From assembly GCA_039924845.1 (NCBI GenBank), contig JBDTAC010000083.1:1-59112 (forward strand): 59,112 nt of DNA, written 5' to 3'. The translations under genes and the position numbers were made by a program. The stretch comes from Bacteroidia bacterium (GTDB lineage Bacteria; Bacteroidota; Bacteroidia; DATLTG01). The stretch's first letter is position 1; each line of letters opens with the position of its first letter. The notes beneath the pieces are model-generated. The model had not been told where the DNA came from and did no database searches. It saw nothing but the letters and a program-made list of their open reading frames with translations. Of this stretch, positions 195-56,142 are shown in pieces.

Positions 195-222
195 GGTCTC
201 AAAAAATTAATTTTCTGAGACC
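195..222 (-). terminator. Terminator of the rimP-nusA-infB operon
   Basis: A GGTCTCA/TGAGACC stem encloses an AAAAATTAATTTT core that can extend the hairpin. On the minus strand it lies 25 bases past the infB stop and is followed by a T-rich run (TTTTTATTTG). Its A/T centre resembles the core of the dispersed quasi-palindrome in this window. Confidence 0.75.
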
Positions 223-5362: not shown

Positions 5363-5371
5363 AAACGACGC
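5353..5371 (+). terminator. Hairpin terminator overlapping the stop codon
   Basis: An 8-bp stem, GCGTCGTT-AAA-AACGACGC, includes the TAA stop of the preceding small membrane protein gene. It runs straight into TCGAAAAATTATTTTTT, so the T-rich part is supplied by the dispersed A/T repeat. Confidence 0.7.
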
Positions 5372-5422
5372 TCGAAAAATTATTTTTTGAAATGTTTTTT
5401 TGGTTTGAAAAATTATTTTTTG
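5372..5422. repeat. Two adjacent copies of the dispersed A/T quasi-palindrome
   Basis: GAAAAATTATTTTTTGAA occurs at 5374-5391 and again about 30 bases later at 5406-5423. Both are non-coding, between a plus-strand terminator and the end of the minus-strand gene at 5469. Confidence 0.85.
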
Positions 5423-5468
5423 AAACTGTTTTTTTTACTGAAAAAAATCTCAGGTAACATTTTGAACA

Positions 5469-7940: not shown

Positions 7941-8570
7941 ATGGCTAAAAACTTTGTCTCCAATAAAGACGAATCGGTAAAAATGTTTGAGAATCGCTTT
8001 TTAGAAGCGTGTTCAAAAGTGCATCCGATTGTTCCGCTGTTTATTTTTGTACCCGTTATTTTGTGGTTCGGCTACACTTCGGTGGCAGCGTACCATTTCT
8101 CGATTATTACGATTGTTGAATTTATTATTTTCGGAATTATTATTTGGACGATTACCGAATATGTATTGCACCGTTTTGTGTTTCACTTTACGCCGAAAAC
8201 ACCATTTATGGAAAAGATACATTTTCTTTTTCATGGCGTTCACCACGATTATCCGAGCGATTCGAGACGTTTGGTTATGCCGCCATCCGTGAGCATTCCA
8301 TTGGCAGCACTTTTTTATTTTTTATTTTATCTAATATTGGGACGTGCTTATGTAGCGCCTTTTTTTGTGGGTTTTATTGCAGGATATCTTTTTTACGACA
8401 TCACACATTATGCCATTCATCATTTTAATATGCACAGTAAATTTTGGTTGGCGATAAAAAATCACCACATGAAACACCATTATCAACAAGCCGATAAAGG
8501 CTACGGTGTTAGTTCTGCCATTTGGGATTATGTTTTTAAAACAGATTTTCCGCCTGCCGAGAAAAAATAA
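7941..8570 (+). CDS. Fatty acid hydroxylase / sterol desaturase family protein
   Basis: This is a membrane di-iron oxygenase of the fatty-acid-hydroxylase superfamily, 209 residues long. Histidine clusters expected for iron binding are visible in order: EYVLHRFVFH (near 73), FHGVHHDYPSD (near 97), HYAIHHFNMH (near 154) and NHHMKHHYQ (near 173). About four hydrophobic spans separate them. The HGVHHDYP and HHMKHHY forms are most like fatty acid 2-hydroxylases, so a role in making 2-hydroxy fatty acids or sphingolipids is likely; this is inferred from family resemblance. The stop codon TAA lies inside a copy of the A/T repeat. Confidence 0.88.
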   Translation: MAKNFVSNKDESVKMFENRFLEACSKVHPIVPLFIFVPVILWFGYTSVAAYHFSIITIVEFIIFGIIIWTITEYVLHRFVFHFTPKTPFMEKIHFLFHGVHHDYPSDSRRLVMPPSVSIPLAALFYFLFYLILGRAYVAPFFVGFIAGYLFYDITHYAIHHFNMHSKFWLAIKNHHMKHHYQQADKGYGVSSAIWDYVFKTDFPPAEKK

Positions 8571-8711
8571 TTTTTCAAACGCTAAAATTTGAATGTATTT
8601 TTTGTGCTTCAAAAAAATAATTTTTCAACCCTCTTTTTCAGACTCTTTTTTATCCTTCGAAAAAATAATTTTTCGAAACGGAAACCTCGTACTTAAAAAA
8701 ATAATTTTCAG
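8559..8711. repeat. Cluster of four A/T quasi-palindromes
   Basis: Copies lie at 8559-8579 (spanning the hydroxylase stop codon), 8608-8628, 8656-8677 and 8692-8711. The third is nearly a perfect palindrome, TTCG-AAAAAATAATTTTT-CGAA. The last sits just upstream of the tRNA-Leu promoter. A further copy follows the tRNA at 8926-8948. Confidence 0.9.
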
Positions 8712-8877: not shown

Positions 8878-8953
8878 TGTCGCTGTGCGATTGTCTTTCA
8901 GGAAAATAGCCGAATACAAAATCGCTTCGAAAAAATAATTTTTGTTCGTCTTC

Positions 8954-10080: not shown

Positions 10081-11082
10081 CTATTTCAATTTATCCGTCA
10101 ATAATTTTATCTCGAGTGCGGGTGAAATTTTTTCGTATAAAATATTGTAAACAGCATTGCTAATAGGCATTTCTACTTGATACGTTTTATTTATTTCGTA
10201 GATACATTTTGCGGCATAATAACCTTCCGCCACCATATTCATCTCAAATTGTGCATATTTAACGGAGTATCCTTTTCCCACCATGCTGCCAAACGTGCGG
10301 TTACGACTGAATTGCGAATACGCCGTTACCAATAAATCACCCAAATAAGCAGAAGAATTTATATCGCGCGAAATCGGATGAACAGTATCTACAAAACGTT
10401 TTATTTCTTGAATCGCATTCGAAATCAACACCGCCTGAAAATTGTCACCATAGCCTAAACCATGACAAATCCCGCTGGCAATCGCAAAAATATTTTTTAA
10501 AACAGAGGAATATTCCGTTCCGTGAATGTCGTCCGAAATAGATGTTTTTATATACCGACAATTTAATTTTGATGCGATAAACGTAGCGTTTTCAGTATTT
10601 TTAGATGCAACGGTGAGATACGATAATTTTTCCATCGCCACTTCTTCTGCATGACAAGGACCTGTAATTACGCCAATAGAATCAAGTGGAGCACCGTATT
10701 GTTGATGAAAAAATTCGCCAACAATTAAATTATTTTCTGGTACAATTCCTTTGATTGCCGAAAAAATTATTTTGCTTTTTAAATCTTCTGGCTGAATACT
10801 TTTAAGCGCTTCTTTCAAAAAAGCAGAAGGCACTGCCATGATTAAAATATCCGCGGCAGCAATGGCTTTCCGTAAATCACTTTCTAAAAATAATTTTTCT
10901 ACCTCCAATTCTACCGAACTTAAATAATTCGGATTGTGTTTAAATTTTGCAATAAAATCAATGGTTTCTGTATTTCGAATCCACCAAATTATTTTTCCGG
11001 AAAGGTTACTTGATATTATTTTGACAATCGCTGTCGCCCAACTTCCTCCACCGATAACCGCTATTTTAGGTTCTTTACTCAT
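10081..11082 (-). CDS. gpsA: Glycerol-3-phosphate dehydrogenase [NAD(P)+]
   Basis: The enzyme reduces dihydroxyacetone phosphate to sn-glycerol 3-phosphate for phospholipid synthesis. The 333-residue cytosolic protein has the dinucleotide motif IAVIGGGSWATAI (about 7-19), the ITGPCHAEEVAM block (about 140), and GICHGLGYGDN with the catalytic-region ALKN-like SVLKNIFAIASG (about 190). NAFAL-like and YLGDLLVTAYS segments follow. It is followed by about 160 bases without a gene. It lies downstream of a glycosyltransferase and a large membrane protein, a setting that fits envelope lipid biogenesis. Confidence 0.94.
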   Translation of the reverse strand: MSKEPKIAVIGGGSWATAIVKIISSNLSGKIIWWIRNTETIDFIAKFKHNPNYLSSVELEVEKLFLESDLRKAIAAADILIMAVPSAFLKEALKSIQPEDLKSKIIFSAIKGIVPENNLIVGEFFHQQYGAPLDSIGVITGPCHAEEVAMEKLSYLTVASKNTENATFIASKLNCRYIKTSISDDIHGTEYSSVLKNIFAIASGICHGLGYGDNFQAVLISNAIQEIKRFVDTVHPISRDINSSAYLGDLLVTAYSQFSRNRTFGSMVGKGYSVKYAQFEMNMVAEGYYAAKCIYEINKTYQVEMPISNAVYNILYEKISPALEIKLLTDKLK

Positions 11083-12403: not shown

Positions 12404-15400
12404 TTAATCTCCTTTTAAAAGACTTATTCTTTCAATTTTAATTTGGCTCGAATCTAAATCCAAAGCTCCAATTTTTATCCAATTATTTTTTATTGAATAC
12501 CAATTGTATTGTGTGCTCACTCGTATCGCAAATTTATTGTTTCTATTCGTTCCAGAAGGAATCTCAAATAAAAATGCGCCAGAGGTACTATTGTTTTTTC
12601 CATACGTTAACCGCATTGTAATTGTTTTTTTGAGATCCGAATTCATTTTGATAAAAATATAATTTCCTTCTGAACGATTTACCTTTTCAGGAAGATTACA
12701 TTCTATCATGTTGTTTTTTACAATTATTTTTTCTTGTGAAAGCAAATCAATAATTTTATTTTTTGATTCGAGCGAAGGATCCGAATTTGCCCAAATAGAT
12801 GGTAATTGCTGCAAATTATACGTTTGCATTTGTTGCGAATAAAAATCTGGAATGTTCGGTGCAGAAAGAACAGAAGCTGAAAAAATATTTTTTGCAGGAA
12901 AAAATAGTTTCGAGTAAGATACCGAATCTAATATGAAAAAGCGCGTTTTATTGAGCGAATCCACGTACACACATTTTATTCTTTCTTTGAAATTTTTATT
13001 TTCATTGGAATAAGAATAGCGCAAACAAGAATCTTCTGCAAAAAGAGTATCGTATTTTATTTTGAATAAATATTTAGTGTTTGAAAAATTATTTTTTTGA
13101 ACAGTAAAATAGATACTATCCGATTTCATTAAAGATTCAATACCTCTAAAGAACAAAGTATCCGTCAGGTTTTTCAAATCAGTATCCGAAATTTTTTTCC
13201 AAACGCAATGATTTTGAATGATAATATATGGGGCGTAATGTTGGAAAAAATATTCTGCCATTCTGTAATGCCTCACCGCATTTGGTACGTCATCCACGTG
13301 ATCCCAAAAGGATTCTGAAAAATTAGAATAAACTAAAAGAGGTGTATCATATTTTTTTAAATTGCTCAAAAAATTATTTTGCAAATAATCATTTTGAAGC
13401 GAAAGCGTGTTTTGATTAAAAACTCCGGGAGTTTCTTTTTCAGTATAGAAATACAACATCGGCGAATTAGAGAAATCAATAAATGTTTGATTTTTTTTCA
13501 AATTTTTATCGATGTAATTTTTGAAGTCTGCGAAAATTATTTTTTTGAAATCGTTGCTCATCGGACAACGATCAATGGTTTTCGCAACAGGTTTTAATTC
13601 CTGAATCGTGTCGTATTTTTGAATCATTTCCGAAAAGGGAGAATCGAAATTTTTCGCTGGCAGCGTAGGAAAATTGTAATTTAAAATAAGGAAACACGCA
13701 GTTCCCGTAAAAAGTAAAAATTTAAATATAGAAGATCTCTTTTGAAAAAAAAGAAACGTAGTTCCACTAAAAATATAAAATATAAAAGAAGAAAGTAGAT
13801 AGTCTTTTCCTTCTATAAAGCTGTGCCGTACCAAGCCGCGTTGAAAATTTACGAAATATAAAATCGTTAAAAAAATCAATGCGTAAACAATAATTTTTGT
13901 ATGTTTTTCGGAACAATAATGTTGGAACTTTAGGATTAAATATCCCAGCAAAATCAAACCTAAAAACGGGAATATAAAATACTGCATTTTATACGAAGAA
14001 AGCGATACATCTCCCATACTAATTGTTCCGTAAGACTGAGAAGAAGAAAAATAATTTAAAATAGTAGATATGCTTTCTCCTAAATTTATTTTCCGAAAAA
14101 GCAGTAAAAACACGATTAATAAAACTCCGCCGATAGCGATTAAAAAGCTCTTCCAAAAAATTATTTTTTCGAACGCTGATTTTTTTTCTACAAAAATGTG
14201 AAGCAAAAAAACACCTCCAATTGTCCACAAAGCAGCGTATCCTAAGTCTATTTGCCAAATTAAAAGAAACGCAATAATTGTAAGTAAGCCAAGATATTTT
14301 TGAATCGTAGCGGGAGTATCTATTGCCTTTATGAAAACGAAAAAGGCAAGCAAACACAATATAAAATGTCCAGGAAAAAGCTGCGAAGAAAGCGGAAAAA
14401 ATAAGGCGAAAAAGAGCGCTACAAAAGCATTCCCTGTAAAATACAATACAAAATAATAGATAATTAAAATGCTTGCACTTAATAAAATAAAATCGTAAAT
14501 AATAAATGCTTGTCCGCTATAACCGTTGATAAACGTATACAACAAGCCTGAAAAAATTTCGGAAAACATGTGTGAATTAAATTTTTGAATAACTGGAATA
14601 GTACCAAAACGCACCATTTCCATAATTGGAAGCGTACGATTGGCAAGCTCAAACATTTCCGAGGATGGCTTCGCAAAAGGCTGATAAACAAGGAACGTTG
14701 CCAAAGAAAGAATACTGAACGGAAAATAAATTTTCGAAAGTAATTGTTTAAAATCAAGCGTACTTAATTTTATTTTTCGTGGAAATAAATAGCTTCTAAA
14801 AAGGATCCAAATCGTTAAAAAAAAGAGTGCTAAAAAATAAATTTTCTTCGACGTGAAATAGAAAATATCTTTGTTATTGAGAATTAAATAAATTTCATTT
14901 TTCAAAACTGAAAAAAGCGGAATGATGGCTATTGGAGCGAATACCCAAAGCACTTTAAAAATTATTTTTTCGGAACGATTTCTAAATAAAAGACTCCAAA
15001 ATAGTGTTGTAAAAAACCCACAAACACAAAATAATTGTAGGAAGTTTAATTTGATTCCAAGCGTTAATAAAAGATTTATCTCTTTGAAAAAAAAGATTTC
15101 CGAAATGGAAATACACATCAATGCCGCAAAAATAGATATCGAAAAAAGCTTGTCTGAAAAATTATTTTTCAGCACAATGAAAAATATCCAAAAGGCTTGG
15201 ATAAAGATGATAATCGCGATTAAAGAATCGGTATTTTCTCCGTATAATTTAAAGAATAAAAAAAACAATCCAACCAAAGAAGTTGCGTTAAATACTTGCA
15301 TTTCATTGTGCAAATACGCCATTCGTCTTCTGTATAAAACGTACAAAAACAAACTAATTCCCGCTGATATGGCAACAATTAAAAAAAGACTTTGGTAAAA

Positions 15401-15595
15401 AACGAGGATGCGTTGGTGAATGTCAAAGCCTTGCAGTGTGGCAATTCCAATCATTCTCCCGGAGAAGGATGTAAGTGAAAAATTTGTTTTTGTAATAAAC
15501 TGAAAAATAAATTTCGTCGCGTAAAACAAGCAAACGAAAACGAAAGAACGATAATGAGCTGAAATAAATTGAAAATATTTTTTTATAGAAGCCAT
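12404..15595 (-). CDS. Large polytopic membrane protein with C-terminal soluble domain, unknown function
   Basis: The 1063-residue product has about 18 predicted membrane spans in residues 15-640. A soluble region of about 420 residues follows, presumably outside the cytoplasm, with no clear domain. A conserved-looking loop after span 9 carries ANRTLPIMEMVRFGTIP. This layout recalls GT-C glycosyltransferases and YfhO-like proteins, but I see no defining catalytic motif. It is the upstream partner of a GT9 enzyme (5-base gap), which suggests a surface-polysaccharide or lipid-glycosylation role. At least six copies of the A/T repeat lie inside its coding sequence, read as NNFS, NNF, KIIF or KLF. 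Confidence 0.75.
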   Translation of the reverse strand: MASIKKYFQFISAHYRSFVFVCLFYATKFIFQFITKTNFSLTSFSGRMIGIATLQGFDIHQRILVFYQSLFLIVAISAGISLFLYVLYRRRMAYLHNEMQVFNATSLVGLFFLFFKLYGENTDSLIAIIIFIQAFWIFFIVLKNNFSDKLFSISIFAALMCISISEIFFFKEINLLLTLGIKLNFLQLFCVCGFFTTLFWSLLFRNRSEKIIFKVLWVFAPIAIIPLFSVLKNEIYLILNNKDIFYFTSKKIYFLALFFLTIWILFRSYLFPRKIKLSTLDFKQLLSKIYFPFSILSLATFLVYQPFAKPSSEMFELANRTLPIMEMVRFGTIPVIQKFNSHMFSEIFSGLLYTFINGYSGQAFIIYDFILLSASILIIYYFVLYFTGNAFVALFFALFFPLSSQLFPGHFILCLLAFFVFIKAIDTPATIQKYLGLLTIIAFLLIWQIDLGYAALWTIGGVFLLHIFVEKKSAFEKIIFWKSFLIAIGGVLLIVFLLLFRKINLGESISTILNYFSSSQSYGTISMGDVSLSSYKMQYFIFPFLGLILLGYLILKFQHYCSEKHTKIIVYALIFLTILYFVNFQRGLVRHSFIEGKDYLLSSFIFYIFSGTTFLFFQKRSSIFKFLLFTGTACFLILNYNFPTLPAKNFDSPFSEMIQKYDTIQELKPVAKTIDRCPMSNDFKKIIFADFKNYIDKNLKKNQTFIDFSNSPMLYFYTEKETPGVFNQNTLSLQNDYLQNNFLSNLKKYDTPLLVYSNFSESFWDHVDDVPNAVRHYRMAEYFFQHYAPYIIIQNHCVWKKISDTDLKNLTDTLFFRGIESLMKSDSIYFTVQKNNFSNTKYLFKIKYDTLFAEDSCLRYSYSNENKNFKERIKCVYVDSLNKTRFFILDSVSYSKLFFPAKNIFSASVLSAPNIPDFYSQQMQTYNLQQLPSIWANSDPSLESKNKIIDLLSQEKIIVKNNMIECNLPEKVNRSEGNYIFIKMNSDLKKTITMRLTYGKNNSTSGAFLFEIPSGTNRNNKFAIRVSTQYNWYSIKNNWIKIGALDLDSSQIKIERISLLKGD
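13080..13102. repeat. A/T quasi-palindrome inside a coding sequence
   Basis: TTTGAAAAATTA-TTTTTTTGAA lies in frame in the 1063-residue membrane protein gene (encoding QKNNFS). Other in-gene copies are at 13362-13385, 13531-13554, 14151-14173, 14957-14979 and 15157-15176. Confidence 0.8.
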
Positions 15596-15636
15596 TTCAT
15601 TTCCGAGTAAAAACAGGTGTCCGAAAAATTATTTTT

Positions 15637-17337
15637 TTAATCGATTATTTGATAAATCGGTCCTTCTCTTTTTACTAACTTTTTTTCTTCTAATGCATTC
15701 ATCATTTTTTGTAATTGATTTTTGGAAATACCGGTACTTTCGCTCATACTGGCGAGCGTTGCCGAACTTTGTTTTTTTAATTCTTCCAAAATTTTCTCCT
15801 CTTCTGGCTTTAATTCTATTGTTACTTTTTTTATAGTTTCCGGACGCATTTGCGGAAAAAATAATACATCTTGAATGGATGGAGAATTAGTCATAATCAT
15901 CGCCAAACGATCGATTCCCATTCCCATTCCAGATGTAGGTGGCATGCCGTATTCCAAGGCGCGTAAAAAATCTTGGTCGATAAACATTGCTTCGTCGTCG
16001 CCTTTTGCTGCGAGTTTCATTTGTTCTTCAAAACGCGCGCGCTGATCAATTGGATCGTTTAATTCGGAATACGCATTACACAATTCTTTTCCGTTTACCA
16101 TTAACTCGAAACGCTCTACCAGTCCAGGTTTACTACGGTGTTTTTTAGTAAGCGGCGACATTTCTTCTGGATAATCTGTAATAAAAGTAGGCTGTATATA
16201 ATGGTGTTCGCATTTTGCTCCAAAAATTTCATCAATTAATTTTCCTTTGCCCATCGATGGTTCCGTGTGGATGTCGAGTTTCGTACACGCTTCGCGCAAT
16301 TGCGTTTCGTCCATCGCAGAAATATCAATTCCGGTATATTCTTTAATCGAATCGTACATGGTGATGCGTTTAAACGGACGCTGAAAATCAATTTCTTTTT
16401 CGCCCACTTTAACTTTTGTTTTTCCGTGTAAATCGAGCGCCACTTTCTCAATCATTTCTTCCGTAAAATCCATCATCCAGAAATAATCTTTGTAAGCCAC
16501 GTAAATTTCCATCACCGTAAATTCGGGATTGTGCGTGCGATCCATTCCTTCGTTACGGAAATCTTTTGCAAATTCATACACGCCATCAAATCCGCCAACA
16601 ATCAGTCTTTTGAGATACAATTCATTCGCGATACGCAAATACAGCGGCATATCTAAGGCATTGTGATGCGTTTTAAAAGGGCGAGCAGCTGCACCGCCCG
16701 GAATGGCTTGCAAAATGGGCGTTTCCACTTCTAAATATCCTTTTGCATTAAATGTGTCGCGCAACGATTGTGTGATTTTCGTACGCTTGATAAACGTTTC
16801 TTTTACATCTTGGTTCACGATTAGATCCACGTAACGCTGACGGTAGCGCATTTCCGGATCAGTAAACGCATCATGCACATTTCCTTCGCTGTCTGTTTTT
16901 ACGATGGGAAGTGGGCGCAGCGATTTACTCAATACTTTAAGCGACGTAACATGAATGGAAATTTCGCCCACTTGCGTCGTAAATACATATCCCGAAACAC
17001 CAATGATATCGCCAATATCCAAGAGTTTCTTAAATACAGTATTATACAAAGTCGTGTCTTCTCCGCTACAAATTTCGTCGCGTTTCACGTAAATCTGAAT
17101 ACGTCCTGTGGCATCTTGCAATTCTGCGAAAGCGGCGTTGCCCATAATACGGCGCGACATCAAGCGTCCTGCCAACGAAATATTTTTATAATTCAGTTTA
17201 TCGCGTTCATAATTTTGATGAATATCTTGCGCGGAAGCATTGATTTCAAAGAGTTCTGCGGGATACGGATTGATTCCGAGTGTAATTAATTCTTGTAAAG
17301 ATTGTCTTCTAAGGACTTCTTGTTCCGATAATTCCAT
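15637..17337 (-). CDS. lysS: Lysyl-tRNA synthetase, class II, with C-terminal winged-helix-like tail
   Basis: The enzyme charges tRNA-Lys. The 566-residue product has the anticodon-binding OB fold (about 55-160; [20 protein letters not shown]) and the class II catalytic core: motif 1 near 200 ([21 protein letters not shown]), motif 2 [20 protein letters not shown], and motif 3 [13 protein letters not shown]. The core ends at [10 protein letters not shown] (about 500). A further 60 residues ([19 protein letters not shown]...[13 protein letters not shown]) look like a small winged helix, which differs from the usual LysRS end. The stop codon overlaps an A/T repeat (15621-15640). Confidence 0.96.
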
Positions 17338-17388: not shown

Positions 17389-18081
17389 TCAGTTTCTGTT
17401 TTCTGTCTTGTCGCTTTTCTTGAAATCAATCAATTCTCCTCCTGCATCTTTTATCAAGCGCAGCGACCATCGCGTAATAATAAATGCGCTGATAATTCCA
17501 CTCATTGCATCAAAAAAGAAAAGATGATATAGCAAACCCAATGTTAACGCAATGATGGCGCCTAAGCCAGAAACAGCATCTGCTAAAATATGGATGTATG
17601 CCGCGCGAATATTGTGATCGCTTTGCGATTTATCGTGATGTAAAAAAAACGTACAAATAACATTTACAATCAATCCAATACTCTCGACGAATAAAGCTTC
17701 GCTAAAATTAATTGGCAATGGATTTAGTAAACGACTTGCCGATTCAATTGCCATAATAATGGCAACCGCCAACAAAGCGATAGCACTGGTAAATCCAGAA
17801 AGTGCAAGCAGCTTTTCTTGTTTGAAAAAATATTTTTTTGAAGCTGTATTTCTTCTCGAAACGACATAAACTATCCACGTTAAGCCCATCGCAAAAACGT
17901 GCGAAGCCATGTGCCAGCCGTCTGCCAGCAAAGCCATCGAACGACTGTGATGCCCGTACCAAATTTCGGCAACCATCGTAATTGCTGTAATGACCACGAC
18001 CACGCGCATTCTGCGCTCATTGGTGTAATGCGGAAAGTGCCACTGATTTTTAAAAGCCTTTTTTTGAAGCGATTCCGACAT
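17389..18081 (-). CDS. Cation diffusion facilitator transporter, DmeF-like, lacking the C-terminal domain
   Basis: The product is 230 residues from the ATG at 18081 (MSESLQKKAFKNQWHFPHYT); a start at 18114 is possible but adds nothing family-like. Six membrane spans are visible. Metal-site motifs are ALLADGWHMASHVFAMG in span 2 and AAYIHILADAVSGLGA in span 5 (HxxxD). The HNIRAAYIH and ITRWSLRLIKDAGGELID segments are closest to DmeF-type Co/Ni exporters. The His loop is short (LHHDKSQSDHN). Usual DmeF proteins run about 80 residues further into a cytoplasmic domain; here the frame ends just after GGELIDFKKSD. Confidence 0.88.
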   Translation of the reverse strand: MSESLQKKAFKNQWHFPHYTNERRMRVVVVITAITMVAEIWYGHHSRSMALLADGWHMASHVFAMGLTWIVYVVSRRNTASKKYFFKQEKLLALSGFTSAIALLAVAIIMAIESASRLLNPLPINFSEALFVESIGLIVNVICTFFLHHDKSQSDHNIRAAYIHILADAVSGLGAIIALTLGLLYHLFFFDAMSGIISAFIITRWSLRLIKDAGGELIDFKKSDKTENRN

Positions 18082-18533: not shown

Positions 18534-20660
18534 GTGAAAAAAATAATTTTTCAAGCCTCATTAATTGCTTTCCTTTTTCCGAGCATACATTCCATTCAAG
18601 CGCAAAACAAAACAGGTTCTAAAAATTGGACAAAAAATCCGTTTGAAGAAAAAGTTTTTGTTGAAAATAAAACTCAATTTGACGGACAAGATAAATTACC
18701 AAACAGTGCTATTTTATTTGGCGTTCGCAACGATGGCGTTCAAATTTATTTTATCCAGAAAGGTTTAACTTATCGCCACGATGAATTTGTGCCGATGAGC
18801 GAAGCTGAAAAGGATAAAGCCGAAAAGGAGGCTGCAAAATCAGGTAGAAAAATGGATGCGGATATGATGCGCAAAAGAAAAACAGATTGCATCAGTATGC
18901 AATGGGAAAACGCGAATCCGAATGTTCAAATTTTTAGCGAGGATGAAGTAAGCAATTATTTTACCTATCCCGACTTGCGCGATAAATCAGGCAAAACAAC
19001 TATTAAAGCATTTGCTTACAAAAAAATAATTTACAAAAATTTATATCCGAATATTGATGTGGAATATTCCTTTCCCGAAAATAAAATAGGAATAAAATAC
19101 ACGATTATTTTGCATCCTGGAGCGGATGTTTCTCAAGTAAAAATGAAATATTCCGAAAACGGAAAAATAAATTTGGATGCAAGTGGAAACGCAGACATAA
19201 ATTCAAACTTTGGAAATATAATTGACCACGCGCCTAAAACATACTACGAAAACGGAAATGTTATTTCTTCCAAATTTACTACCACACAAAATACCGTTTC
19301 ATTTGCTTTGCAAAATTACGATCATGCACAAACTGTTATTATTGATCCTTGGGTAACAGTGCCAGGTTACACAACAGGAAGTCCTTATGATGTAGATGCT
19401 GATTTGGCGGGCAATGTATATATTTACGGAGATGGCTACCCTCATATAGAAGTAAAACTAAACAATCTCGGGACTATTTTATGGACTTATACCGCATTAG
19501 CTATTGATTCTTTTGGTTTTTATGGGGGTTTTGCAGTGGACGAACACAGCCAAAATTCTTATTTAGTTGAAGGTTTTGGCAGTTTTTATGGTGCAAAAAT
19601 TATAAAAATAAATCCCTTTGGATTTCAATTGGCAATTTCTGTAGGAAATATTAATTTAGAAGAAATGTGGCGTATTGTTTTTAATAATACCACTCGAACT
19701 GGTGTTATTGGGACTGGATTTGGTTACGAAGCTTGTGTTTTAGATACAACGCTTTCTAATGTTACACCTATAAATGTTTTAGAAGGCACTAATACTGCTG
19801 ATGATATTTGCCTATTAGCACAAGATAATAACAATAATTGCTACATGGCAGATGCGTATAATACAGTAGATTCGGCATCAAACAATTTCTTATTTAAAAG
19901 TAAAATTCCAACTATACTTCCAATTTCATACGAAGTTTCAGATGGATATAAATTTAAGGAAATTCAATCTATTTCCTATACAGAAAGAAATGGTTTAGGT
20001 ATGTTTTTTAATGCCAACGGATTTAACGGTATGGCAGTAAACAACAATTATCTCTACACGTACGATGGAGCCATTTTAAAAAAATGGAATGCACCTACTG
20101 GAGTTTTACTGGGAAGTGTTGCTGTTGAGGATAGTTCTTTTAAATGGGGAGGTTTACAAGTAGATAGTTGTAACGATATTTTTGTAGGAGCAATGAACAG
20201 TGTTAAACAATACGATGTTAATTTGAATCTTATAAATACCATTGCTACTACCGATACTGTTTATGATTTAAAATTAGGAACAAATAATTTACTTTATGCT
20301 TGCGGAAAAGGTTTTGTGCAATCTATCCAATTAGATTCGTTATGCGGTTCTGAGCCGACTTCGCCTCCGATTGTGCCTACTCTGCAATCTTCTCTAATAA
20401 TTCCCAATGTTTTTTCGCCAAACGGAGATGGAAAAAATGATGTGTTTAAAGTGCAATCGATCGGCATCAGTACCTTCGATGCAAAAATATTTGACCGTTG
20501 GGGAATTCAATTATTCGAATGGACAAACCCAAACATTGGCTGGAACGGTGAAACAAAAACAGGCAATGCTCCTGACGGAACGTATTATTACCTCATAAAC
20601 GCCACCGGAATTGACGGAAAAAAATATCTGGAAAAAGGATTTGTAACATTAATAAGGTGA
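18534..20660 (+). CDS. Secreted protein with C-terminal gliding-motility (CHU_C) domain
   Basis: The GTG at 18534 is chosen because it gives a signal peptide (MKKIIFQASLIAFLFPSIHSIQAQ-like, written with initial V in a longer frame). The mature region starts with a domain found at the N-terminus of many Bacteroidota SBBP-type secreted proteins (FVENKTQFDGQDKLPNSAIL, HPGADVSQVKMKY). A beta-propeller-like section follows (DADLAGNVYIYG, KWGGLQVDSCNDIFVG). It ends in a CHU_C domain: NVFSPNGDGKNDVFKV, FDRWGIQLFEW, GWNGETKTGNAPDGTYYY. The C-terminus suggests type IX secretion and a cell-surface or released location. 708 residues. Confidence 0.9.
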   Translation: MKKIIFQASLIAFLFPSIHSIQAQNKTGSKNWTKNPFEEKVFVENKTQFDGQDKLPNSAILFGVRNDGVQIYFIQKGLTYRHDEFVPMSEAEKDKAEKEAAKSGRKMDADMMRKRKTDCISMQWENANPNVQIFSEDEVSNYFTYPDLRDKSGKTTIKAFAYKKIIYKNLYPNIDVEYSFPENKIGIKYTIILHPGADVSQVKMKYSENGKINLDASGNADINSNFGNIIDHAPKTYYENGNVISSKFTTTQNTVSFALQNYDHAQTVIIDPWVTVPGYTTGSPYDVDADLAGNVYIYGDGYPHIEVKLNNLGTILWTYTALAIDSFGFYGGFAVDEHSQNSYLVEGFGSFYGAKIIKINPFGFQLAISVGNINLEEMWRIVFNNTTRTGVIGTGFGYEACVLDTTLSNVTPINVLEGTNTADDICLLAQDNNNNCYMADAYNTVDSASNNFLFKSKIPTILPISYEVSDGYKFKEIQSISYTERNGLGMFFNANGFNGMAVNNNYLYTYDGAILKKWNAPTGVLLGSVAVEDSSFKWGGLQVDSCNDIFVGAMNSVKQYDVNLNLINTIATTDTVYDLKLGTNNLLYACGKGFVQSIQLDSLCGSEPTSPPIVPTLQSSLIIPNVFSPNGDGKNDVFKVQSIGISTFDAKIFDRWGIQLFEWTNPNIGWNGETKTGNAPDGTYYYLINATGIDGKKYLEKGFVTLIR

Positions 20661-20714
20661 TCTACAATCCTTAATTTGGATAGAAAAAAGTAAGAAGCGA
20701 AGCAAAATACAATG

Positions 20715-20735
20715 TCGAAAAATTATTTTTTTGAA
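20715..20735. repeat. A/T quasi-palindrome
   Basis: TCGAAAAATTA-TTTTTTTGAA lies between the CHU_C gene and the radical SAM gene. A TTG inside it could be taken as an upstream start but is unlikely. Confidence 0.85.
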
Positions 20736-21831: not shown

Positions 21832-21869
21832 AAAAGGGGTTTGAAAAATTAATTTTTCAAACCCCTTTT
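21832..21869. terminator. Bidirectional terminator, perfect 38-bp palindrome
   Basis: AAAAGGGGTTTGAAAAATT pairs exactly with AATTTTTCAAACCCCTTTT. It lies between two converging genes, so it probably stops both. The inner part is the dispersed A/T repeat in its AATT-centred form, here wrapped in a GGGG/CCCC clamp. Confidence 0.9.
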
Positions 21870-22499: not shown

Positions 22500-23249
<750 letters not shown>

Positions 23250-25160: not shown

Positions 25161-25206
25161 TTCAAAAAAATAATTTTTCGGACACCCAAAAAAATAATTT
25201 TTGAAA
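25161..25206. repeat. Two A/T quasi-palindromes between rpsI and rpsB
   Basis: TTCAAAAAAATAATTTTTCG at 25161-25180 and CAAAAAAATAATTTTTGAAA at 25187-25206, six bases apart, fill most of the 86-base gap. Confidence 0.85.
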
Positions 25207-26157: not shown

Positions 26158-26247
26158 TTTATTGACAAATTATTGTTAATAAGCCCATTTTAATCTCTAT
26201 GAGATGAAGAATTCTTCATCTGTTTGCAAATATCGTAAAAAAGTGGG

Positions 26248-26268
26248 TTGAAAAATTATTTTTTTGAA
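26248..26268. repeat. A/T quasi-palindrome between HU and rplM
   Basis: TTGAAAAATTA-TTTTTTTGAA, 20 bases past the HU terminator. It is part of a 264-base gap (26068-26331) that also holds the rplM promoter and HU terminator; nothing else is seen there. Confidence 0.85.
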
Positions 26269-26660: not shown

Positions 26661-27006
26661 CAATATATTCCTTTTAAAACGCAAGTCTTGAAGCAAAAAA
26701 ACGCTAAAATTGTTGATAAGTAAGCTTTTTGTTAATAAATAAGCGCTGATTCGTCCTAAAATAAGGCTTATTGGAGATAATAAAACGCCGAGCTATACTT
26801 TTCATTTGCATTTTTTTATTTTCAATACCTTCTCCTTTTCAACACCTTTATCTACAAGGCATTCAGAAAAAGTTATTTTTTTTCGTTCAAAAAAATAATT
26901 TTTTAACATTTTTTCACTTGACGGCGCATACTAAATGAAGTAATTTAGTGTTCGCATAGTAAGTAAATGTTTTTTATTTTGTTGTGTTATTTATCCTTGA
27001 CCCCCT
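26661..27006. other. Non-coding gap between divergent HU and a small gene
   Basis: About 345 bases without a gene. It contains the near-direct repeats GTTGATAAGTAAG and GTTAATAAATAAG (26709-26745), an A/T repeat copy at 26886-26906, an inverted repeat ACTAAAT/ATTTAGT (near 26929-26949), and a TATCCTTG promoter-like element (26992-26999) just before the ATG at 27007. No DnaA-box cluster or RNA gene is recognised. Confidence 0.5.
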
Positions 27007-28117: not shown

Positions 28118-28118
28118 G

Positions 28119-28139
28119 TTGAAAAATTATTTTTTTGAA
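28119..28139. repeat. A/T quasi-palindrome between queG and its upstream neighbour
   Basis: TTGAAAAATTA-TTTTTTTGAA begins two bases upstream of the queG start codon, in the presumed leader or promoter region. Confidence 0.85.
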
Positions 28140-30709: not shown

Positions 30710-30710
30710 G

Positions 30711-30731
30711 TCGAAAAATTATTTTTTGGAA
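30711..30731. repeat. A/T quasi-palindrome at a gene start
   Basis: TCGAAAAATTA-TTTTTTGGAA ends two bases from the start codon of the barrel gene (30709). Confidence 0.85.
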
Positions 30732-30805: not shown

Positions 30806-30890
30806 TTCGAAAAATTATTTTTTCAACCGTGTTTTTTTGAGAATAAAAAAAGCCGAAAAAAATTCGGCTTCTAAAAATTATTTTTTGGAA
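30806..30890. repeat. Two A/T quasi-palindromes flanking the siaC terminator
   Basis: TTCGAAAAATTATTTTTTCA at 30806-30825 and TCTAAAAATTATTTTTTGGA at 30870-30889. The second abuts the terminator hairpin at 30850-30870 and the end of siaC. Confidence 0.85.
30850..30870 (-). terminator. Terminator of siaB-siaC
   Basis: AAGCCGAA pairs with TTCGGCTT around five A. On the minus strand it is followed by TTTTTATTC. It lies 27 bases past the siaC stop. Confidence 0.8.
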
Positions 30891-31965: not shown

Positions 31966-32808
31966 TTATTTCATTGTGAAAGGAAATACTGTTCCATTAA
32001 TCGAAACAGAAGCTTGATCGGAGCAATTTCCAGTTCCATCACCAAAAGTAAGTATCCGAGTAGCTAAGCCTGTTGGAGTTAAATCCAATTTCCCAGAGCT
32101 AATCCATGGACAATTTGCTTTTTTAACAAGTGGATAATTTTGTTCAATCGAAACTGTATAAGCTTGTCCGTTGCGGTTCACCCCATTTTCGCTTCCTGTA
32201 ATTTGATATACGCGGTGAGCTGCTGTAGTGTCTGTAATCGTTACTTGCCGATTCATTGCCCAAGTAATTACCCAATTACTTGCAGTACATTTTCCGTTTG
32301 AGATATTAGAACTATAAGACGTTCCGCTGTTATGCGTAAGCGTAAGTGTGCCCTGAAAATTAGTACCGTTTACGTAATAATTACTTAAAGAAACGGTAAC
32401 CACCGCGCCGTTATGATGCCAACGATCTGAAAAAACAATTGTGATTAACCCAGAACGTGTTCTTCCATCTGTGGTGTCAAGAACTCCTGGCAAAGGACCA
32501 TAATCAATAGTAACTGTTCTTGGAAAACCGTGAGTGGTGTCGGCAGGTGTAATGTGTGGATAAGCAGATTCCGTTTGTAGGTTGCCTCCATGTCCTCCAT
32601 ATTTTATAATCTGAACTCCATTTCCTCCAGCATGATCTACCGCGATACTATTAACTGTTGGTAACATGCGCGAGTATTCCGCCTCACACATACTATTGTC
32701 AATAGGCGATTGAATATCGGTATCTGCTACTGCTTTTTTGCAGGAATTAAACATTAAAGCAGCCGCTCCAGCTACTAAAAGTAAGATGGGAAAAATTATT
32801 TTTTTCAT
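31966..32808 (-). CDS. Lipoprotein of unknown function (280 aa)
   Basis: The lipoprotein signal is MKKIIFPILLLVAGAAALMF followed by NSCKK, with the Cys at about 23. The soluble part is Thr/Ser/Gly-rich and beta-looking: FPRTVTIDYGPLPGVLDTTDGRTRSG, then GTLTLTHNSGTSY. The WHHNG motif and the acidic ending GNCSDQASVSING are notable, but no family name is recognised. The first codons are formed by an A/T repeat copy (32788-32808). Confidence 0.75.
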   Translation of the reverse strand: MKKIIFPILLLVAGAAALMFNSCKKAVADTDIQSPIDNSMCEAEYSRMLPTVNSIAVDHAGGNGVQIIKYGGHGGNLQTESAYPHITPADTTHGFPRTVTIDYGPLPGVLDTTDGRTRSGLITIVFSDRWHHNGAVVTVSLSNYYVNGTNFQGTLTLTHNSGTSYSSNISNGKCTASNWVITWAMNRQVTITDTTAAHRVYQITGSENGVNRNGQAYTVSIEQNYPLVKKANCPWISSGKLDLTPTGLATRILTFGDGTGNCSDQASVSINGTVFPFTMK

Positions 32809-32860: not shown

Positions 32861-33658
32861 TTATTTTTGATGCAACAAATCGGGGCTTGTTTTTTTAGCA
32901 GTTTTTGATTTGGTTGCGCGTTGATAATCTTTGAAAATGGCGACACAAATTTTTGGATAACAAAGTGCTTCTATTTTTTTCGGATTGTTTACGCTTACTG
33001 GAAAACGTATGGACGAAACGCCCGCTGTAATTGTTTTTCCAGCTTTATCCAAAATAGAATATTGAACGGTCATTTCGCGTTCATAAATATTATCGCTTGT
33101 ACTCATATCTGCATCGCTTTTCAACACGTGTTTAATGTCTAATTCATTGATAAAAATAAATACATCTGCTCCATATTTTTTATTCAGTTTCGGCAATAAT
33201 AACTGATTGGTTACTTTCGTATTCATAAAACCTTGCTGCGCATTTACGTCCGTATTTACTTGTCCGTTTATCATTTGATGCGTGTCTTCCTGATTTTTTT
33301 TTGAAGATGCTTTCGCGCTTGTATCGGGCACCGCATCGTATTCGTACGTAATATTTTCATAAATATATTGCAATTCGTTGGTGTCCGAAAGCAAAGAAAT
33401 CGGTGCGTAATTTCCTTTAAATTGAAGTGCCAGTGAAGTGTTTAAATTGTTCCGAAAATTTGCCCACATTTGTGGATAGGTCATTTTTGTTTCTTGCGAA
33501 ATGTACAAGTCAATTTCCGACATATACATTTTTGGTTCAAAAGGAATGATTAACATTTTTTCCTTTACTGTTGTGGACGAAGTAGTTTGCGAAAATAATT
33601 TTTCGGAGCGTAAAAGCAGATTCGAAAAAATCAGAAAAAAGAAAATTATTTTTTTCAT
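32861..33658 (-). CDS. Exported protein of unknown function (265 aa)
   Basis: The start is placed at the ATG at 33658 because it yields a signal peptide (MKKIIFFFLIFSNLLLRSEK then LFSQ); a longer frame to 33703 would overlap the end of rseP. The mature part has LIIPFEPKMYMSEIDLYISQ, VFIFINELDIKHVLKSD and a C-terminal basic tail. It is 10 bases after rseP and probably transcribed with it. Possibly an envelope lipoprotein-like partner, but no domain is recognised. Confidence 0.75.
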   Translation of the reverse strand: MKKIIFFFLIFSNLLLRSEKLFSQTTSSTTVKEKMLIIPFEPKMYMSEIDLYISQETKMTYPQMWANFRNNLNTSLALQFKGNYAPISLLSDTNELQYIYENITYEYDAVPDTSAKASSKKNQEDTHQMINGQVNTDVNAQQGFMNTKVTNQLLLPKLNKKYGADVFIFINELDIKHVLKSDADMSTSDNIYEREMTVQYSILDKAGKTITAGVSSIRFPVSVNNPKKIEALCYPKICVAIFKDYQRATKSKTAKKTSPDLLHQK

Positions 33659-34994: not shown

Positions 34995-36194
34995 TTAAAT
35001 TTTTACGCTTTGTGCGTTGTTCAATTGCTGAATTAATTCTGTTGCTTTTATTCTTGTTTCTTTATCTGTTTCCAGATAATCGGCGTAGCTTGGTTGTGCT
35101 GAAAAAAATATTTTTTCGAGGCACTTTTCAATCAACACGGACATTTGCGTGAACGATATTTTATCTTGTAAAAAGGATTCCACTGCAATTTCGTTTGCTG
35201 CATTTAAAATACAAGGCATATTTCCGCCTTTTTCCATCGCAAAATAAGCGAGGGCAAGATTACGAAAAGTTTTTATATCCGGCTTTTCAAACGTGAGCGA
35301 AGGATAATCCATAAAATTTAATCTCGGAAAATTCGATGAAATTCGTTGTGGATAAGCCAACGCATATTGAATCGGCAATTTCATGTCCGGCAATCCCATT
35401 TGCGCTTTGATGGAACCATCAGTGAACTGAACCATGGAATGAATAATGGATTGTGGATGCACCAACACTTCTATCTGTTCTGGTTTTAAATGGAATAACC
35501 ATTTAGCTTCGATTACTTCCAAGCCTTTGTTCATAAGGCTTGCCGAATCAATCGTAACTTTTGCTCCCATCACCCAATTGGGATGTTTCAGCGCGGCTTC
35601 CTTTTTTACTGTTTCCAGAAACGCAATATCTTTTCCACGAAACGGTCCGCCAGAAGCGGTCAAAAATATTTTTTCAATTGGATTGTGAAATTCTCCAGCA
35701 AGGCATTGAAAAATAGCGGAATGTTCCGAATCCACGGGATAAATATTTACTGCATTTTCTCGCGCCAGCGAAGTAATTAATTCTCCGGCAACTACCAAAG
35801 TTTCTTTGTTGGCAAGGGCAATCGGCTTTTTGGCTTTGATGGCATTTATGGTAGAAGGCAATCCTGCAAAGCCGACAATGGCTGTCAAAACAATGTCAAC
35901 GCTGTCCATTTCCACAATTTGGGCAATCGCATCTTCGCCAGCAAAAACTTTTATTTCCTTTGATTGTAACGCTTCTGCAACTATTTTGTATTTTGATTTG
36001 TCCGCAATTACCACTGCATTTGGATGAAAGCGAAGTGCTTGTTGAATGAGTAAATCTGCATTATTTCCAGCTGTTAACACTTCCACCGAAAAATGTTCGG
36101 GATGTGCAGCAATCACTTCTAATGCTTGCGTACCAATGGATCCAGTAGAACCAAGGATGGCAATTTTTTTCGGAATTTGTTTTTCAGTGTTCAA
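34995..36194 (-). CDS. dxr: 1-Deoxy-D-xylulose 5-phosphate reductoisomerase
   Basis: This is the second step of the MEP isoprenoid pathway (DXP to MEP, NADPH). The 399-residue product shows the NADPH motif ILGSTGSIGTQALEVI (about 12-27), LANKETLVVAGELI, PVDSEHSAIFQCL and ASGGPFRG. The catalytic-loop region WVMGAKVTIDSASLMNKGLE and HPQSIIHSMVQF follow. All key residues are present. It is co-transcribed with rseP. Confidence 0.98.
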   Translation of the reverse strand: MNTEKQIPKKIAILGSTGSIGTQALEVIAAHPEHFSVEVLTAGNNADLLIQQALRFHPNAVVIADKSKYKIVAEALQSKEIKVFAGEDAIAQIVEMDSVDIVLTAIVGFAGLPSTINAIKAKKPIALANKETLVVAGELITSLARENAVNIYPVDSEHSAIFQCLAGEFHNPIEKIFLTASGGPFRGKDIAFLETVKKEAALKHPNWVMGAKVTIDSASLMNKGLEVIEAKWLFHLKPEQIEVLVHPQSIIHSMVQFTDGSIKAQMGLPDMKLPIQYALAYPQRISSNFPRLNFMDYPSLTFEKPDIKTFRNLALAYFAMEKGGNMPCILNAANEIAVESFLQDKISFTQMSVLIEKCLEKIFFSAQPSYADYLETDKETRIKATELIQQLNNAQSVKI

Positions 36195-36261
36195 AAAAAT
36201 ATTTTTTCGAGGACGAATTTACGGTTTAAAATTAATCAATAATAGCACTGCATTGGGAGCA

Positions 36262-36281
36262 TCAGAAAAATAATTTTTCAA
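36262..36281. repeat. A/T quasi-palindrome before dxr
   Basis: TCAGAAAAATAATTTTTCAA lies in the 110-base gap between the M23 peptidase gene and dxr. Confidence 0.8.
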
Positions 36282-36304
36282 AGAAAGATATTCGTTATTG
36301 TTTA

Positions 36305-41753: not shown

Positions 41754-41774
41754 TTCGAAAAATTAATTTTTTCG
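41754..41774. repeat. A/T quasi-palindrome upstream of lepA
   Basis: TTCGAAAAATTAATTTTTTC lies 15 bases before the lepA promoter element. It is the AATT-centred form, as in the palindrome at 21832. Confidence 0.8.
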
Positions 41775-41788
41775 TGGCAATAAAATTT

Positions 41789-43610: not shown

Positions 43611-43682
43611 TTTTTGAAGGCATTAATCGAACTTGAAATACACTAATTTAAGGGCTTCCAAAAAATATTTTTTCATTCGGAA

Positions 43683-44729
43683 ATGGATTTTCAGAAAGTA
43701 GAACAAGTTCCCTTTTTTTTTATCCTCGGTAAATCGAGATCCGGAACTACTTTGCTACAAACGATACTGGACGCGCATCCGAACGCCATGGTTCCAGTCG
43801 AATCTATTTTTTTAGTATATCTGAAAAAAAAATATTTTCGAATTAAAAACTGGAACGAAAATCGAGTAAATCAATTTATTAATGATTTATATAAGGAGCG
43901 AAAATTTCGATATTTCTGGAATGAGGATCGAGAAAAACTACGCGCCGATTTGCAAGCTATTCCCAAAAATAAAATTTCATTCGCGCTGCTTTGTAAATAT
44001 ATTTATTTGAATTATTCTTCTGTTTTTACGAAAGAAAATATTCAACTGATTGGAGATAAAAATCCGGTGTACCCTTTTTTTATATCCGATATTTTGGAAG
44101 TTTTTCCAGATGCGAAATTTATACATTTGATTCGTGATTATCGTGATGTCATTGTATCGAGTCGTGAAGCACTTACCAATAGAAGTGCCGCGTATTTTGC
44201 GTACGAATGGAGAGATGTAAACGAACGTATTGAAAAAGAAAAAGCAAAACATTCTTCTGCCTTTTACACGCTCAAGTACGAAGATTTAATTACAGATCCC
44301 GAATTTTTCTTGAAAGAAGTTTGCGCTTTTTTAATGCTGTCGTATTCTCCTAAAATACTTGATTTTTACAATCGCCCAGAAAACTATTTTTACAATAAAG
44401 CGCACGACAATACGCGCCAGCCGATTAATAAAAAAAGCATGGATAAATGGAAATCAAAGCTGAGCGAAAAAGAAATTTTAATAGCTGATTTTATTGCTGG
44501 AACTTTCGCAAAAAAATATAACTATGAATCGGAGGACATTCGAAAAAATATTTTTTTGAACGTTCTTTTTTGGACTGCAATGTTGCGTCAAAAAATGGAG
44601 GTTTTTATTTTCAGATGGTATCAAAAAATGCCAATTAGATTCAAAAATACGAAAGCGATTCTCGCTAAAAAATTTCATGTTTTTTCGCATCACAGTCGAG
44701 CGGAAGATCGCTTTTTGAAAGGAAAATAA
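43683..44729 (+). CDS. Sulfotransferase-family protein
   Basis: The 348-residue product has a PAPS-binding 5' motif FFILGKSRSGTTLLQTILDA (about 10-29) and the 3'-phosphate region FIHLIRDYRDVIVSSREAL (about 140-158). TLKYEDLITDPEFFLKEVCAF follows, all Sulfotransf_3-like. It has no signal peptide; a basic, aromatic C-terminal region (about 280-340) may touch the membrane. The acceptor is unknown. In a Bacteroidota setting, sulfated lipids (sulfonolipid or glycan sulfates) are possible but not shown. Confidence 0.87.
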   Translation: MDFQKVEQVPFFFILGKSRSGTTLLQTILDAHPNAMVPVESIFLVYLKKKYFRIKNWNENRVNQFINDLYKERKFRYFWNEDREKLRADLQAIPKNKISFALLCKYIYLNYSSVFTKENIQLIGDKNPVYPFFISDILEVFPDAKFIHLIRDYRDVIVSSREALTNRSAAYFAYEWRDVNERIEKEKAKHSSAFYTLKYEDLITDPEFFLKEVCAFLMLSYSPKILDFYNRPENYFYNKAHDNTRQPINKKSMDKWKSKLSEKEILIADFIAGTFAKKYNYESEDIRKNIFLNVLFWTAMLRQKMEVFIFRWYQKMPIRFKNTKAILAKKFHVFSHHSRAEDRFLKGK

Positions 44730-45086
44730 AATATAGAAGGTGCTTCTCTATTTCCTAAATTTATTTTTCAAAACAAAAATAAATACTATTTTGCTCTTCG
44801 AAAAATTATTTTTTCAATCTTATTTTTCTTAGTTTCTTTTTTCTTGAAAAAATAATTTCATTTCTATTTTTTCTTTCTTTTATCTTGAAACAAATGAAAG
44901 AAACAAAGAATAATTCAAGGCTGTGATTTCTCATTTCATTTTCGCTTCCTGAAGCCTATTCGTCGGGTGATTTCCTCGCATTCGCTCGGAGCTTCCTGAA
45001 CTCATCACGTCTTCATTTTGCTAAAATTTTATTCGAAATCAGATACCGTTTTATGGCGTTCAAAAAAATAATTTTTCAAATCAAAA
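44730..45086. other. Non-coding gap with A/T repeats and a G+C-richer stretch
   Basis: 357 bases without a credible gene between converging sulfotransferase and purL. It contains A/T repeats at 44797-44817 and 45059-45080. Between 44920 and 45020 is a less A/T-rich segment with short inverted repeats (GCTTCctGAAGC, GTGAT...ATCAC). I do not recognise an RNA family, but this block could be a structured RNA or a dispersed element. Confidence 0.5.
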
Positions 45087-47315: not shown

Positions 47316-47363
47316 AAATTTATTTTCTAAGGAAGCGTAAAGGTAAGAAACTGTTTAACGTCC

Positions 47364-47384
47364 TTCAAAAATTATTTTTTTGAA
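47364..47384. repeat. A/T quasi-palindrome upstream of purL
   Basis: TTCAAAAATTA-TTTTTTTGAA lies 49 bases upstream of the purL start, in a 200-base gap (47316-47515) with no gene or other clear signal. Confidence 0.85.
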
Positions 47385-56079: not shown

Positions 56080-56142
56080 TTTTTGCATTTGAAAAAATAT
56101 TTTTTTGAACCCATTTTTAAAGTAAATTTAATATTGGATTAT

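Follow-up and report, generated by a model that had tools for sequence, protein, structure and literature searches.

A dispersed, nearly symmetric DNA motif in a Bacteroidia genome, a candidate site for bending or wrapping of DNA

Why should a single gene contain six copies of a dispersed DNA repeat, and is it the DNA or the protein that accounts for them? The question arises from a stretch of 59,112 nucleotides, called the window here, from a Bacteroidia bacterium (assembly GCA_039924845.1, contig JBDTAC010000083.1, positions 1 to 59,112 of the forward strand), in which an open reading frame (ORF) of 1063 amino acids (aa) contains the copies. An earlier note on the window had held that the protein tolerates the repeat, and that the motif either binds something, whether or not the DNA is transcribed, or is favoured by mutation. 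Judged from sequence comparison, the motif in genes is a DNA-level feature, with the peptides KIIF and KNNF as by-products. The best explanation, to which we would give a little less than an even chance, is that the repeat is a dispersed site of a putative chromosome-architecture protein acting on bent or wrapped DNA. New here is a symmetric oscillation of G+C content, with a period of 11 base pairs (bp), around isolated intergenic sites in both of the genome samples described below. The gene and its copies are as follows (22-bp coordinates, with scores from the matrix introduced below).

12404..15595, minus strand: the 1063-aa ORF, with five strong copies and one marginal copy (ORF list, matrix scores)
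13080..13101, plus strand: motif site in the 1063-aa gene, KNNF; score 34.2
13362..13385, plus strand: marginal copy in the 1063-aa gene, QNNF; score 6.4, under the threshold of 14
13528..13549, plus strand: motif site in the 1063-aa gene, KKIIF; score 16.4
14152..14173, plus strand: motif site in the 1063-aa gene, EKIIF; score 29.6
14953..14974, plus strand: motif site in the 1063-aa gene, EKIIF; score 21.5
15153..15174, plus strand: motif site in the 1063-aa gene, KNNF; score 17.1

The gene sits immediately downstream of lysS on the same strand. Its product has no Pfam match, even at an E value of 10; two distant homologues (34% and 27-28% identity) were found in 40 genomes including its own, with none further in loci near LysS, and a matrix scan of both homologue loci gave zero matches. 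All six stretches listed in the earlier note (13080-13102, 13362-13385, 13531-13554, 14151-14173, 14957-14979 and 15157-15176) do lie inside this ORF. Five of them score 16.4-34.2, and the copy at 13362-13385 is only marginal. Their sense readings are VQKNNFSN, YLQNNFLSN, NDFKKIIFA, FEKIIFWK, NRSEKIIF and IVLKNNFS: three KIIF and three NNF, with the KLF that had also been proposed absent from these six. Two frames are used among them, in agreement with the claim that the copies do not all share one frame.

The source genome comprises 2.66 Mb in 101 contigs (completeness 99.1%; 64% A+T as sampled). From it, 754,967 bases (about 755 kb) were analysed as a first sample of 453 kb, on which a matrix was trained, and a second of 302 kb, kept out of training. 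An alignment of 143 seed matches from the 453 kb yields the consensus TTYGAAAAATTATTTTTTYGAA, which is 22 bp long and nearly two-fold symmetric, with two inverted TTCRAAAAAWT halves; the seed rule fixed the five central bases TTATT, so that their invariance is partly built in. On each side of the core the same alignment has about three G/C-rich positions, followed by about five almost without G or C. The 26-column matrix trained on this genome, with a site defined by a score of at least 14, finds 532 sites in the 755 kb, against 1 with the reversed matrix and 0-2 with each of 20 column-permuted matrices. The mean density in the sampled DNA, both strands included, is about 1 site per 1.4 kb (about 0.7/kb), and at a score of 12 it ranges from 0.4 to 1.05/kb across the 21 stretches of the first sample. 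Extrapolated from the sample, the whole genome would hold about 1,900 sites. Within the window, allowing up to three mismatches yields 54 matches, compared with 1.39 expected and with a maximum of 5 in 100 dinucleotide shuffles; the shuffle control at the seed stage was a single shuffle. Together, the shuffled, reversed and permuted controls rule out low complexity or chance.

The 19-mer core occurs 571 times in the genome with up to one mismatch. Exact copies number 118 on the plus strand and 119 on the minus strand (0 for a backwards control), indicating that the motif has no strand polarity. Chi and KOPS (FtsK orienting polar sequences) are oriented signals, and candidates of that kind are disfavoured by this even split. 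At gathering thresholds, a tRNA was the sole Rfam match in the window, and a viral scan with the exact 19-mer returned five single matches.

Sites are unevenly divided between genes and the DNA between them. Gene calls came from a home-made codon-usage script rather than a standard annotator; for the 1063-aa gene it put the start at 15454 instead of 15595. By these calls, 138 of the 328 sites in the first sample fall within genes (30 of them no more than 15 nt from a gene end) and 190 outside. Site density is 0.34/kb in coding and 3.7/kb in non-coding DNA, and the second sample gives 0.33 and 3.4. In one respect this corrects the earlier note: the motif does avoid genes, if incompletely. The intergenic sites of the first sample occupy tandem gaps (122), convergent gaps (34), divergent gaps (27, in 10.4 kb) and stretch edges (7), and sites are frequent shortly 3' of stop codons.

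The sites inside genes bear most directly on the choice between DNA and protein. Counting as internal those at least 30 nt from gene ends, the first sample has 91 in 360 genes, where synonymous shuffling (ten runs) gives 27-36 and codon-order shuffling (ten runs) 0-3; the second has 60 in 234 genes, compared with 17-29 and 0-2. The excess over synonymous shuffles, 2.5- to 3-fold, indicates that codon choice leans towards the motif, and that over codon-order shuffles is more than 50-fold. Internal sites occupy all six combinations of frame and orientation, with the reverse complement of the consensus preferred as the sense reading (63 versus 28). At the peptide level, KIIF occurs 39 times in the first sample versus 4.8 in shuffled proteins (about 8-fold) and its reversal 0 times; for KNNF the figures are 41 versus 2.5 (about 16-fold), with 2 for the reversal. 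Genes with weak codon bias carry the most sites: density is 0.54/kb in the lowest fifth of genes by codon score and 0.13/kb in the highest. The 1063-aa gene, whose 3.2 kb hold five strong sites and whose codon score per aa is 0.077 (range of the lowest fifth, 0.052-0.171), is one of the motif-tolerant genes.

Comparison with relatives, all from other orders than that of the window genome, provides the orthologue alignment that the earlier note had proposed. An alignment was available for 193 of 594 genes, and 43 sites in 30 genes were judged, using one best alignment per gene. Over eight residues, identity to the relatives is 0.328 at sites versus 0.489 in random windows of the same alignments, a value as low being reached in none of 5000 resamplings; gaps of at least 4 occur at 3 of the 43 sites, with 1.17 expected. 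An earlier count on the first sample, to which a gene could contribute as many as three alignments, gave 0.27 versus 0.48 over 35 rows, one of which had a gap of at least 5 in the relative. The low identity without an excess of gaps indicates that most sites arose through base substitutions where the protein tolerates them, rather than through insertion. Together with the six frame/orientation combinations and the shuffles, the alignments place the outcome on the DNA side; conservation solely at the amino-acid level, which would have made the DNA motif incidental, was not seen among these 43 sites. For the 1063-aa gene itself the test is thin, since two sites are alignable and the homologues stand at 34% and 27%.

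What the sites may be for is suggested by the DNA around them. At 293 isolated sites, the G+C fraction is 0.10 near 19 bp from the symmetry axis and 0.41 near 23 bp; farther out it is low near 32, 43, 54 and 63 bp and high near 39, 48 and 59 bp. Control A4-T4 cores have G+C fractions of 0.31-0.40 (910 in the same genome) and 0.35-0.42 (963 in relatives). The outer wave was fitted at 27-64 bp, beyond the reach of the matrix, and compared with 100 random sets. For the 293 sites the fit gives a period of 11.0 bp, with bootstrap quartiles of 10.8-11.1, and an amplitude of 0.040, which no random set reached; the wave is the same when only sites free of weak neighbours are kept (264 and 243 sites). 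At the 166 intergenic sites among them the period is 11.1 bp and the amplitude 0.059 (0 of 100 random sets); here the wave is symmetric and extends to about ±63 bp, and it recurs in the first sample at 11.2 bp and in the second at 10.8 bp, again reached by 0 of 100 random sets each. The genic sites keep the inner flanks only, to about ±26 bp: G/C-rich at 12-15, A/T-rich at 17-20 and G/C-rich at 23-26 bp. Beyond the core little sequence is conserved, the conservation being one of composition only. Distances between neighbouring sites are also patterned. Of 78 spacings between 24 and 66 bp, 19 fall at 35-38 and 29 at 47-50, against 4 at 39-45 and 6 at 51-58. This preference is seen in both samples; the phase power of the spacings is 28.3, and a smoothed null has its 99th percentile at 6.7.

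A symmetric core, patterned flanks and preferred spacings are together the pattern expected from a dimeric bending or wrapping protein, and from this pattern we infer one. The putative protein, itself symmetric (dimeric), would recognise the core; the DNA on both sides would bend or wrap around it, with the A/T blocks presenting their minor grooves to the protein; and selection for sites, whether for compaction, loops or supercoiling, would fix matching mutations even at amino-acid cost. The interpretation in the earlier note is supported in part: of its alternatives of binding and mutation, DNA-level origin and site-specific recognition are favoured, and mutational origin is not, since the specific 22-bp sequence, the patterned flanks and the preferred spacings all point to recognition by a protein. 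That genic sites retain the inner flanks alone fits selection limited by coding, but would also fit a shorter site with some other cause of the intergenic wave. A more ambitious form of the proposal is a genome-encoded positioning code, in which nearly two thousand strong, symmetric sites would each organise up to about 125 bp, written by selection over protein sequence where this is tolerated. It is possible but doubtful; if true, it would amount to a bacterial counterpart of nucleosomes that are positioned strongly by sequence.

The first candidate for the protein would be gyrase, or else a nucleoid protein with the same sense of wrapping, because the intergenic layout (a central part and two phased arms over about 125 bp, with a period near 11 bp) resembles the gyrase motif of Escherichia coli. 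The latter is described as spanning 130 bp, with a central 36 bp (-16 to 19), two 47-bp arms and a G/C period of 10.75 bp (PMC6379681). The likeness drawn here is in layout and period, a symmetric pattern of about 130 bp with two phased arms. It applies to the 166 intergenic sites (11.1 bp, reached by 0 of 100 random sets) and not to the 127 genic ones (14 of 100 at 11.0 bp). Of the geometries considered, that of the gyrase motif is the closest found. The genome has three HU genes, one of them in the window (26338-26607, minus strand).

A number of observations weigh against a bending or wrapping protein, or against gyrase in particular. The outer wave was not detected in the 127 genic sites, where the best fit has a period of 14.2 bp and an amplitude of 0.022 that 6 of 100 random sets match; when a somewhat different range was fitted earlier, the period came to 11.3-11.8 bp for all sites and for the intergenic ones, and to 14.5 and 8.4 bp for genic ones. 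The spacings fit 12.2-13.1 bp better than 11.0 bp, so that a single helical model fails to fit both spacings and flanks. Close pairs are not in excess of random placement (15 versus 21.7 below 40 bp, 41 versus 34.6 below 60 bp), and cooperative clustering is therefore not supported; some pairs may be duplications, such as two similar pairs in stretch L010. A/T tracts away from sites are themselves phased near 10.4 bp, to at least 60 bp, in the window and in stretches L004-L023 and L142-L161, more strongly than in the sampled relatives (10.05-10.2 bp or nothing clear), and this genome-wide phasing may feed the flank wave. Strong gyrase sites are reported to slow the E. coli enzyme (PMC6379681), and the gyrase motif is degenerate and drawn from cleavage maps, whereas the motif here has a fixed A-tract core at about 0.7/kb. 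Histone-fold and Lrp/AsnC effector domains were not found in the genome, candidates other than these and HU not having been sought. Finally, 21 of 530 sites, of which 17 are intergenic, 3 lie at gene edges and 1 is internal, are extended by at least 7 further consecutive pairs and look like terminators.

Two other known systems offer partial parallels. The phi29 protein p6 is described as contacting the minor groove of DNA every 12 bp per monomer and 24 per dimer, and is said to recognise bendability and no specific sequence (PMC10899789). Its regular contacts recall the spacings here, which lie near 24, 36 and 48-49 bp and fit 12.2-13.1 bp, beside flanks with a period of 11.0 bp; what differs is that the motif here is a specific sequence. 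HIP1 (highly iterated palindrome 1) of cyanobacteria, GCGATCGC, likewise has many copies and is reported to be tied to DNA methyltransferases (PMC4390886). It is only 8 bp long and contains G/C, unlike the 22-bp, A/T-rich motif with its patterned flanks.

Among the alternatives to an architectural site, the main rival, itself unlikely, is an uptake sequence similar to the uptake signal sequences (USS) of Pasteurellaceae or the DNA uptake sequences (DUS) of Neisseriaceae. Here preferred import and recombination would spread the motif by molecular drive, limited by damage to genes. USS and DUS resemble the motif in their very many copies in and between genes, their origin by point mutation and their rarity in constrained genes, and A/T tracts lie beside the USS core. 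At about 0.7/kb, the motif is nearly as dense as USS in Haemophilus influenzae, whose genome is about 1.8 Mb. Counts given for that species are 1,465 USS cores, or 2,206 by motif search, and USS are reported to build up from point mutations as a result of biased uptake and to avoid constrained genes and new DNA (PMC7811141), which parallels the substitution origin and the distribution seen here. The preference for one orientation in genes (63 versus 28) also has its counterpart in a reported bias of USS inside genes (PMC2346458). Long motif-free stretches carry cargo-like genes: at L023:669-10271, L157:3610-17164 and L153:4794-12110, where 12.7, 12.1 and 8.0 sites are expected, lie genes for stress proteins (BON, OsmC, ferritin-like) and ice-binding proteins, as well as COX1/DUF2249/hemerythrin genes, as found by Pfam comparison (9 of the 11, 7 of the 14 and 3 of the 10 genes called). 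These stretches are possibly recent arrivals; a prophage in that of L157 is unsupported by PHROGs matches for 9 of the 14 genes called there. The genome has ComEC and DprA, which say little because 10 and 11, respectively, of the 14 control genomes have them too. Against uptake, PF00437, the ATPase family of type IV pili and type II secretion, had no match in this 99.1% complete genome and was found in 14 of 14 control genomes. In addition, uptake predicts neither phased flanks nor preferred spacings, and the motif differs from USS and DUS in having both, with its nearly symmetric core, two-sided flanks and placement in another phylum. Uptake and wrapping are not mutually exclusive.

The remaining alternatives are less probable still. 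Terminators sharing one stem sequence would account for the 21 extended perfect palindromes, 11 of which lie between convergent genes and many of which have A runs before and T runs after them, and for the many sites shortly after stop codons. However, the flanks show no hairpin covariation at 183 intergenic and 97 internal sites (single positions reach z values of 2.2 and -2.0), and the complementarity of flank pairs does not exceed that expected from column composition, so that the set is not a hairpin family. Intergenic pair runs of 3-6 number 27 versus 60 from re-paired flanks, and sites also occur between divergent genes and within genes. A terminator or RNA hairpin is thus ruled out for most sites, and as a general account it is very improbable. 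REP (repetitive extragenic palindromic), BIME (bacterial interspersed mosaic element) and MITE (miniature inverted-repeat transposable element) repeats are inserted elements, found mostly outside genes. A mobile or templated repeat of such a kind, or a short insertion, would match the dispersal of an inverted repeat in many copies, and one relative does carry many copies of other repeats. But orthologues align without insertion at most sites, the sites having arisen by substitution, and beyond the core it is composition that is conserved, with little sequence. This lack of a gap excess rules out mobile insertion as tried here, and we consider the whole class highly improbable. Least credible of all, to the point of near dismissal, is an incidental product of A/T-rich composition or of KIIF/KNNF protein motifs. 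The genome is indeed 64% A+T, and the proteins by themselves would lead one to expect about 30 of the first sample's 91 internal sites; yet hardly any sites remain in the dinucleotide, reversed, permuted and codon-order controls, the peptide excess is one-directional, and 190 of 328 first-sample sites lie outside called genes.

The other genomes compared have few copies of the motif or none. The LysS of the window genome has a best-segment identity of 66-78% in at least 80 loci, mostly from Bacteroidota metagenome-assembled genomes and isolates. In 394 other genomes of the class, no more than three copies each of the 19-mer core (up to one mismatch) were found, which rules out ancestry shared with the class; 11 genomes from the LysS list have 0 or 1 core copy, and 82 further loci, 1.42 Mb in all, contain 4 matrix matches. 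The relative G395 (393 kb) has 2 matrix matches and G398 (226 kb) none. As separate observations, G398 (L104-L117, L027; LysS 78% identical over 500 residues) has an iterated palindrome of its own, CCCGATAGCTATCGGG, whose 11-mer occurs 18 times in the 226 kb with both strands counted, and in G395 (L118-L136, L024) repeats that include GTCATTGCGAGG and CTGTCATCCCGG occur in many copies. No relevant report of the motif, or of such a repeat in Bacteroidetes, was found in the open-licence literature, where four papers contain one of its 14-mers, seemingly without bearing on it, and we know of no uptake sequences in Bacteroidota. If these are uptake sites, they would be the first known in that phylum, and a route without the known pilus motor would be needed; if they are wrapping sites, they would form a natural library of perhaps 1,900, by extrapolation, for the sequence rules of bacterial DNA wrapping. 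A single DNA motif here measurably shifts amino-acid usage in the sampled quarter of the genome, which bears on how far chromosome organisation or DNA transfer can shape protein sequence.

The other sites in the window are listed below with their scores. In the array starting at 8558, axis spacings are 50, 48 and 36 bp, and the fourth member scores 12.0.

198..219, plus strand: motif site, extended palindrome; 15.7
5371..5392, plus strand: first of a pair 33 bp apart; 28.4
5404..5425, plus strand: second of the 33-bp pair; 30.3
8558..8579, minus strand: motif site across a gene end, array member; 21.5
8608..8629, minus strand: motif site, array with 8558..8579; 36.2
8656..8677, minus strand: motif site, array with 8558..8579; 36.3
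8926..8947, minus strand: motif site; 18.6
10881..10902, minus strand: motif site in the glycerol-3-phosphate dehydrogenase gene 10081-11082, relatives differing at the site; 16.7
15620..15641, plus strand: motif site between the 1063-aa gene and lysS; 26.8
17821..17842, plus strand: motif site in a cation-efflux gene; 29.6
18534..18555, minus strand: motif site in gene 18480-20660; 26.8
20714..20735, plus strand: motif site; 31.7
21840..21861, plus strand: inner stem of the perfect palindrome 21829-21868, convergent genes, terminator-like; 26.1
23207..23228, plus strand: motif site; 29.6
25161..25182, minus strand: first of a pair 24 bp apart; 33.0
25185..25206, minus strand: second of the 24-bp pair; 19.8
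26247..26268, plus strand: motif site adjoining the HU gene (26338-26607, minus strand); 34.4
26886..26907, minus strand: motif site flanking the HU gene opposite 26247..26268; 27.7
28118..28139, plus strand: motif site; 33.2
30710..30731, plus strand: motif site; 28.7
30806..30827, plus strand: first of a pair 63 bp apart; 29.8
30869..30890, plus strand: second of the 63-bp pair; 25.3
32787..32808, plus strand: motif site over the start codon of ORF 31966-32808; 17.4
33586..33607, minus strand: motif site in gene 32861-33703; 17.4
35099..35120, minus strand: motif site in gene 34995-36194; 19.7
36190..36211, minus strand: motif site at the start of gene 34995-36194; 25.3
36261..36282, minus strand: motif site 71 bp from 36190..36211; 28.0
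41754..41775, plus strand: motif site; 17.1
43656..43677, minus strand: motif site; 21.1
44539..44560, plus strand: motif site in gene 43683-44729; 28.5
44797..44818, plus strand: motif site; 25.9
45059..45080, minus strand: motif site; 35.2
47363..47384, plus strand: motif site; 26.3
49901..49922, plus strand: motif site; 37.5
50891..50912, plus strand: motif site; 34.4
54265..54286, plus strand: motif site; 31.2
55347..55368, plus strand: motif site at a gene end; 27.1
56088..56109, plus strand: motif site; 27.9
56592..56613, plus strand: motif site; 33.3

The window also contains repeats of other kinds. Imperfect repeats at 6304-7377 (families D13 and D17) lie in ORF 6051-7865, which probably encodes a repeat protein. 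A G/C-rich inverted repeat (I21), unlike the A/T motif, has its two arms at 133-164 and 18360-18391, 18 kb apart and 88% complementary.

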